DNA of 58,303 nt, taken from the NCBI GenBank assembly GCA_949299935.1, contig CASGCE010000028.1, positions 1-58,303 of the forward strand. Direction: 5' to 3'. This DNA comes from an uncultured bacterium (GTDB lineage: Bacteria > Cyanobacteriota > Vampirovibrionia > Gastranaerophilales > Gastranaerophilaceae). Numbering within the stretch: the first letter of the stretch is position 1; each line of letters starts with the position of its first letter. A program made the position numbers and the translations under genes. A model generated the notes under the pieces. That model saw only the letters and a list, made by a program, of their open reading frames with translations, was not told the DNA's origin and made no database searches. Of this stretch, positions 56,143 to 56,483 are shown piece by piece.

Positions 56143-56403
56143 TATTGGTGGTTTAGCTCATATATTTGAAGCATTGCACCGAACACGACAACTAAGTATT
56201 GTTAGTAGATGTTTGATAAAGTTTAAAGCCCAAGAGTATTGATTTAAAAAATTTTTATAATAAAATGGAGTATATGGGTTGCCACTTCATGTGTTTAGAG
56301 CACTGTGTGTGAACAAGACAACTGAGTGTTGTCGGATGAAAGGCCTGATAAGGGTCAAAGCCAGAGAAATTGATTTTGAAAATTTTTACAATAGAATAGA
56401 AAA
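56143..56403 (+). repeat. Two degenerate tRNA-Ile-like units in tandem upstream of tRNA-Ile
   Basis: Units of 130-131 bp at 56143-56272 and 56273-56403 align to each other throughout, including their AT-rich 3' part. Each starts with TAT-GGG, has a D-arm-like piece (GTTTAGAGC, or GCTCATATATTTGAAGC), then a 30-50 nt insertion with hairpin GACAAC/GTTGTC, then an anticodon-loop-like TGATAA. No T-arm follows. The third position of this period is the intact tRNA-Ile. These are either decayed tRNA copies with an insertion, or structured RNAs. No gene lies in 56000-56406. Confidence 0.6.
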
Positions 56404-56406
56404 TAT

Positions 56407-56483
56407 GGGCTGCTAGCTCAGGTGGTTAGAGCGCACCCCTGATAAGGGTGAGGTCGGTGGTTCGAGTCCACTGCGGCCCACCA
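56407..56483 (+). tRNA. tRNA-Ile (GAT)
   Basis: Acceptor GGGCTGC/GCGGCCC, D-stem GCTC/GAGC, anticodon stem CACCC/GGGTG with loop CTGATAA (GAT), T-arm GGTGG-TTCGAGT-CCACT, A, encoded CCA. It is not in an rRNA operon here, where this tRNA often sits. Confidence 0.95.

Follow-up and report, generated by a model that had tools for sequence, protein, structure and literature searches.

The two tRNA-Ile-like units that stand ahead of the intact tRNA-Ile gene in the window (the whole 58,303-nucleotide stretch of DNA that was analysed, from an uncultured member of the Gastranaerophilaceae) have, in our judgement, about an even chance of belonging, in decayed form, to a class of tandem "tRNA-end units" of the Gastranaerophilales, spread by a non-autonomous mobile palindrome that settles in duplicated tRNA ends. 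A unit of this class consists of a copy of a tRNA terminal sequence, a palindrome of about 43 nt that follows a fixed GC and replaces part of the next arm, a few more tRNA nucleotides, and an AT-rich spacer. The hairpin is itself a dispersed element in which GC is followed by ACTCTGCCGA, the palindrome, and GAGAGG, and its border lies between GC and ACTCTGCC.

The sequence-only reading of the window had described tandem units at 130- to 131-bp spacing before an intact tRNA-Ile, and the starts at positions 56146, 56276, and 56407, all on the forward strand and thus 130 and 131 bp apart, bear this out. The window contains direct repeats of 64 nt (80% identity, spacing of 131) and 22 nt (86% identity, spacing of 130). 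ARAGORN reports the third unit alone, as Ile(gat) at 56407-56483, and Rfam scores this intact tRNA-Ile(GAU) at 63.6 bits. In unit 2, a copy of nucleotides 1 to ~26 of tRNA-Ile (56276-56301; from the sequence and repeat D1, in an arrangement shared by relatives) leads into the hairpin element (56300-56343) and then into CCTGATAAGGGT(C), a copy of anticodon-arm sequence (56344-56356; exact 12-nt repeat D4). Unit 1 has the same layout but is more decayed, with a tRNA-Ile 5' end copy at 56146-56172 (sequence and alignment), the hairpin element at 56173-56211, and an anticodon-arm remnant, TTTGATAAAG, recognised by eye in the sequence at 56212-56221. AT-rich spacers with promoter-like words, both lying within direct repeat D1, separate units 1 and 2 (56239-56268) and precede the intact tRNA (56369-56399), and a predicted promoter-like stretch ahead of unit 1 (56100-56128) appears by eye to be a degraded version of the TTGATTTTAAAAAATGTCCATGATAAATTAG of relatives. 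The spacers, the inserted hairpin in both units (visible in the sequence and with a model from relatives, although unit 1 is not significant alone), and the TGATAA kept as a remnant in units 1 and 2 had all been described correctly; the common TAT-GGG start holds except for unit 1, which begins TAT-TGG. The T-arm is absent from units 1 and 2, as had also been stated, the cloverleaf is incomplete, and no tRNA match was obtained in either unit with ARAGORN or with Rfam at permissive settings (E 10), on which grounds a functional tRNA reading of the two was rejected.

Over the window, model R1, built from relatives, scored the hairpin of unit 2 at 27.5 bits (E 7.4e-5) and that of unit 1 at 12.3 bits, which by itself is not significant (E 0.62); when folded alone as DNA, the hairpins had z values of -1.95 and -0.06, respectively. 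It is mainly because of the relatives that we take the window units to be more than chance. The stem of unit 1 had been thought to carry changes on both sides. In fact, both units have GACAAC as their 5' arm, and the 3' arm alone is altered, from GTTGTC in unit 2 to ATTGTT in unit 1, which produces a C.A mismatch and a G.T pair and weakens the pairing; these changes are decay, not compensation. Elsewhere in the window, a palindrome at 15974-15998 that may be a terminator scores 23.1 bits with the hairpin model, which it matches over the stem but not at the ends. Decayed tRNA copies and an intron-like insertion, which the earlier reading had offered as separate options, turn out to be right in combination, as a truncated 5' end copy with an inserted hairpin that has decayed in the window; the insert, however, is no tRNA-Ile intron but a dispersed palindromic element. 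Taken alone, the window could be explained well enough by tandem duplication of tRNA-Ile followed by ordinary decay, together with a local insertion that means nothing beyond this site, but the same insert is found at many tRNAs in hundreds of genomes, which refutes this explanation and leaves it with next to no chance.

All 59 relatives searched had a match somewhere, most of them at the tRNA alone and several at the unit too, and the tRNA-Ile genes among their loci carried zero, one, or two units. Four of these loci (L001, L003, L013, and L020) have a common upstream gene neighbourhood, and in L013 and L020 the tRNA comes immediately after the promoter-like stretch, with no unit between them. 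Within one genus, the unit can be present or absent at one tRNA-Ile locus, and no single recent gain or loss event was seen at the locus compared within one genus. A pattern scan of the genome contigs yielded 60 stretches, 52 of which had an ARAGORN tRNA-Ile within 1.5 kb of the unit, the listed units lying downstream of it in three cases (L063, L081, and L101). The remaining eight had no tRNA-Ile; several of them were at contig ends and one, L067, was broken by N and was excluded from the seed sets because of this run. Anticodon-arm sequence is retained in the Ile units. In three loci from other genera (L016, L017, and L030), different hairpin-rich inserts, with partly inverted D-arm copies, follow the copied tRNA-Ile start. 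At six loci (L063, L101, L105, L047, L111, and L040), the hairpin core downstream of tRNA-Ile has another 5' flank, roughly GGGACGCACTNTAAGYATTCAGTA, the core of which matched exactly at three loci and was not found in viral contigs.

A hairpin profile search also matched sites without tRNA-Ile flanks, and the wider distribution was followed with a strict pattern, GCACTCTGCCGA-N(22-40)-GAGAGG, which fixes 12 and 6 end bases and leaves the stem between them free, so that the ends of the element are set by the pattern and their conservation is partly built in. This pattern occurred in 308 of the 383 genomes of the family Gastranaerophilaceae and in 38 of its 41 genera, with 0 to 60 copies per genome, while a reversed-pattern control had no match in the same 383 genomes. 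Together with its shortness, these counts make the hairpin a REP-like interspersed palindrome in the broad sense. Other families of the order had the pattern in 3 of 22 genomes (G040, G048, and G049). Outside the order, it was absent from all 5 genomes searched in the remainder of the class and from all 131 in the remainder of the phylum, whereas the same search matched 90 of 107 genomes of the family (subcounts tallied by hand from the result rows). Among the genomes searched, the element is confined to this order. A phage or plasmid origin was considered and rejected, with no matches in phages and plasmids and no viral contig matching the longer pattern; the sole viral-contig match to the short pattern is taken as chance because its middle, judged by eye, contains no palindrome. 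One genome, G084, has about 60 copies (L161 to L190), sometimes in direct pairs that are 51 bp apart and linked by TAGACA, within other intergenic repeats, and most of the copies fetched from it sit in such repeats, away from tRNAs.

The genome from which the window comes has no match to the strict pattern. Besides unit 2, a covariance model found four strong copies and a weaker one in other parts of this genome. One locus (L331) is a hairpin array ahead of a tRNA whose start it copies, tRNA-Pro by eye; at a second (L332), the copy adjoins another tRNA, tRNA-Leu by eye; and at a third (L330), the site has no tRNA match. A strong copy at the end of contig 17 (L329) lies in a context that looked by eye like the 3' end of 5S rRNA, a suspicion that was not confirmed by Rfam.

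Of the first 30 loci from the search of the family, most were upstream of tRNA-Leu, -Met, and -Lys. An even sample was then formed from all strict copies in 12 genomes, each of a different genus (93 copies in 69 regions), with a tRNA counted when it lay within 450 bp and a copy assigned to a region edge when it was <120 bp away. Here, 52 of the 93 copies lay on the strand of a tRNA and upstream of it, 3 were downstream on the opposite strand, all of them at tRNA-Gln, and the other two orientations were not represented (0 of 93). The 38 unplaced copies comprised 10 at contig or region edges and 28 without a tRNA within 450 bp, 3 of which visibly belong to a tRNA-Leu array severed by a contig end. 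Thus, all 55 copies near a tRNA are oriented from the end of the gene toward its interior. In the mixed set of all loci, nine copies were downstream on the same strand; six of them were at tRNA-Ile, and two others actually lay upstream of a tRNA-Met located behind a tRNA-Phe.

The flank before the hairpin matched the start of the adjacent tRNA in 49 of the 52 upstream copies, with a mean score of 11.2 for the copy's own tRNA against 0.46 for other tRNAs. Allowing for the fact that the tRNA start given by ARAGORN can be off by one, the point at which this match ends is nearly constant: nucleotide 11 or 12 in 44 of 48 non-Ile copies (one ended at 13, with 77% identity, and three were unmatched) and nucleotide 26 or 27 in all four Ile copies. 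After the hairpin, 40 of the 52 return to tRNA sequence with 7 or more of 8 nucleotides matching, and the intact tRNA stands beside the hairpin units. Tandem arrays of two to four copies, 89 to 137 bp apart, occurred at 15 of 72 places in the 12-genome sample, and some copies lie outside RNA genes, within other palindromes. A universal closing stem between the copied tRNA end and the stretch after the hairpin, an idea formed by eye from Met and Leu units, failed in general when tested on 96 units. Scores for own versus other tRNAs were 15.9 versus 16.0 for Ile, 15.5 versus 15.7 for Pro-cgg, and 13.1 versus 13.6 for Val-gac, and they were clearly higher for some only, such as Met (20.0 versus 16.4) and Leu-gag (20.1 versus 15.4).

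The sequence of the palindrome is variable, and its pairing is kept. In a gap-free alignment of 52 distinct 43-mers, a 14-pair structure had 95.2% of cells paired compared to 82.6% after shuffling and 103 cells changed on both sides compared to 25.2; none of 500 shuffles reached either observed value, and sliding the partners abolished the signal. One measure, the count of additional pair types, did not exceed the shuffles, 420 of 500 of which were as high. Columns 17 to 22 paired with 28 to 33 were Watson-Crick in 312 of 312 cells of this 43-nt class, with zero G-U, and the two outer pairs were either Watson-Crick or, in 13 of 52, tandem G.A. A cruder symmetric count over 146 middles of all lengths gave 1,160 Watson-Crick, 62 G.A, 32 G-U, and 60 other pairs, so G-U is rare yet present in the longer length classes. 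Compensatory change in relatives, which the sequence-only reading had named as a check, is therefore seen in the hairpin family, whereas the window copies fail on it. Such change is expected of a structured RNA, but a DNA hairpin would also give it, and the strict pairing, the location on the opposite strand at tRNA 3' ends, and the copies outside RNA genes together point, short of proof, to an element acting at the DNA level.

Near-perfect Watson-Crick arms and regularly spaced tandem arrays would also be produced by replication errors alone, with template switching at hairpins and slippage copying the tRNA ends and gene conversion spreading the palindrome, with no transposase; that no partner enzyme was found in a search covering the PF01797 proteins is in line with this. 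We consider such an origin unlikely because identical element ends at many unrelated tRNAs and intergenic palindromes go beyond what local copying alone would yield and because the tandem G.A pairs kept in 13 of 52 should have been removed by arm correction.

It is less probable still that the units are transcribed and act as a tRNA-gene leader or a tRNA decoy. The compensatory stem changes and the anticodon-arm sequence of the Ile units are compatible with a functional RNA, as is the motif TTGAMAATTRAATA, which was present in 65 of 108 spacers behind the hairpin compared to a shuffled expectation of 0.65. The same motif, however, also occurred where there was no strict hairpin, in 14 of 51 upstream regions (0.95 expected from shuffling), and in the tRNA upstream regions examined (L016 to L320), it sits shortly ahead of the tRNA starts; it may be the tRNA promoter of the group or an end of the unit. 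Consensus promoters overall were little better than shuffles. A sigma-70 promoter in every unit was considered and rejected, with only 18% of 95 spacers reaching P < 0.05 against shuffles and Ile being the best group. The earlier suggestion of functional tRNA-like RNAs is unsupported: the element is on the opposite strand at tRNA 3' ends and also occurs outside RNA genes, its copy number ranges from 0 to 60, it is missing in close relatives, including some tRNA-Ile loci of the same genus, and the inner pairs of the 43-nt class covary without G-U.

Genes for RAYTs (REP-associated tyrosine transposases) exist in these genomes (NF047646, 143.9 bits), and PF01797 was matched in 123 of the 383 family genomes. 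In L193, hairpin copies flank such a gene, and after this locus, the hairpin as the cognate REP of these RAYTs was the favoured reading. It was then rejected because the RAYTs have their own repeat: most of 18 RAYT loci carry, by eye, a different GTAG- or GTCG-type GGTTGGG..CCCAAC repeat just upstream, and the hairpin shows neither the tag nor the flanking arrangement. Moreover, only 5 of 29 ORFs have the hairpin word ACTCTGCCG within 400 bp (31 loci, 2 without an ORF), and PF01797 is unlinked to copy number, being matched in 4 of the 12 genomes with at least 12 copies, about the family average. We regard this reading as very unlikely. By eye, a RAYT-type repeat appears inserted into a hairpin copy in L221, and in L221, L192, and L193, RAYT genes or their repeats appear inserted into hairpin copies.

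The tRNA-Ile gene seems to hold integrative elements of about 2.3 kb (G028, L121), 11 kb (G025, L122 and L123), and 20 kb (G024, L124 and L125), the far end of which repeats the tRNA 3' half from CTGATAAGG on, starting in the anticodon loop. Since such elements do occupy tRNA-Ile and the Ile units retain anticodon-loop sequence, the units could be thought of as attachment-site remnants of integrative elements using this gene. The hairpin is absent from the far ends of the 2- to 20-kb elements in G024, G025, and G028, and many other tRNAs carry it at nucleotide 11 or 12; an island attachment site was accordingly rejected, and this highly improbable explanation is largely refuted.

We thus return to a non-autonomous mobile palindrome of the general REP/RPE/MITE kind as the preferred explanation. 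Such an element would spread by entering the step between GC and G in hairpin-forming single-stranded DNA, and survival would be limited to those insertions that are accompanied by a second copy of the tRNA end, which leaves the gene intact. The resulting arrays would then expand and contract through slippage or recombination and would decay, as in the window. No insertion, excision, or mobilising enzyme was observed, and none of the mechanisms tested accounts for the duplication of the tRNA end. A bolder idea, which we put forward tentatively and consider rather unlikely, is that of a system adding hairpin cassettes to tRNA gene ends, in which an enzyme would recognise the conserved hairpin base and the step between GC and G at a fixed distance inside the gene end, insert inward from either end, and regenerate the gene by end copying, so that arrays would grow like CRISPR or integron arrays. 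The wide presence of the element across one order makes it testable by strain comparison. If mobile, the element would offer a natural setting in which to study how structure guides insertion into DNA hairpins, and annotators should be aware that an apparent tRNA fragment in one of these genomes can be a repeat.

Kilobase-sized elements that carry an integrase are known to land in tRNA genes, and to our knowledge, no known target rule fits a palindrome of ~43 nt at a fixed nucleotide of many tRNA ends. The literature searched, to which subscription papers and preprints do not belong, yielded no description of these tRNA-end units. As described in the sections consulted of PMC9897764, integrative and conjugative elements in tRNA genes likewise place a partial tRNA copy beside an intact one, whereas here a 43-nt hairpin lies in a gene-free unit of ~90 to 137 bp at the 5' ends of many tRNAs. 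Dada DNA transposons also target small RNA genes, including tRNA genes, but going by parts of PMC3706591 and PMC8869645, they are animal DNA transposons that use multicopy genes and are another kind of element. The Rickettsia palindromic elements (RPEs), according to a portion of PMC3767692, are similar in being palindromic repeats that are limited to one bacterial group and occur in genes without killing them; they differ in being 100 to 150 bp long and known from protein genes, while the hairpin is ~43 nt long and in tRNA-end copies. REPs, too, are short imperfect palindromes dispersed between genes, and some REP families sit inside other palindromes, grouped in tandem (extracts of PMC2817692 and, for the latter, PMC3733652). 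In the same extracts, however, REPs carry a GTAG or CGTC tag and accompany or flank RAYT genes, neither of which is true of the hairpin, and they usually number >100 copies (PMC2817692), above most hairpin counts; tRNA-end targeting does not feature in the REP families compared from those extracts. In size and spread, then, the element resembles the short interspersed palindromes (REP, RPE, and MITE), and its new part is the target rule, by which the element sits at a single fixed nucleotide within the end of each of many tRNA genes and that end is copied.
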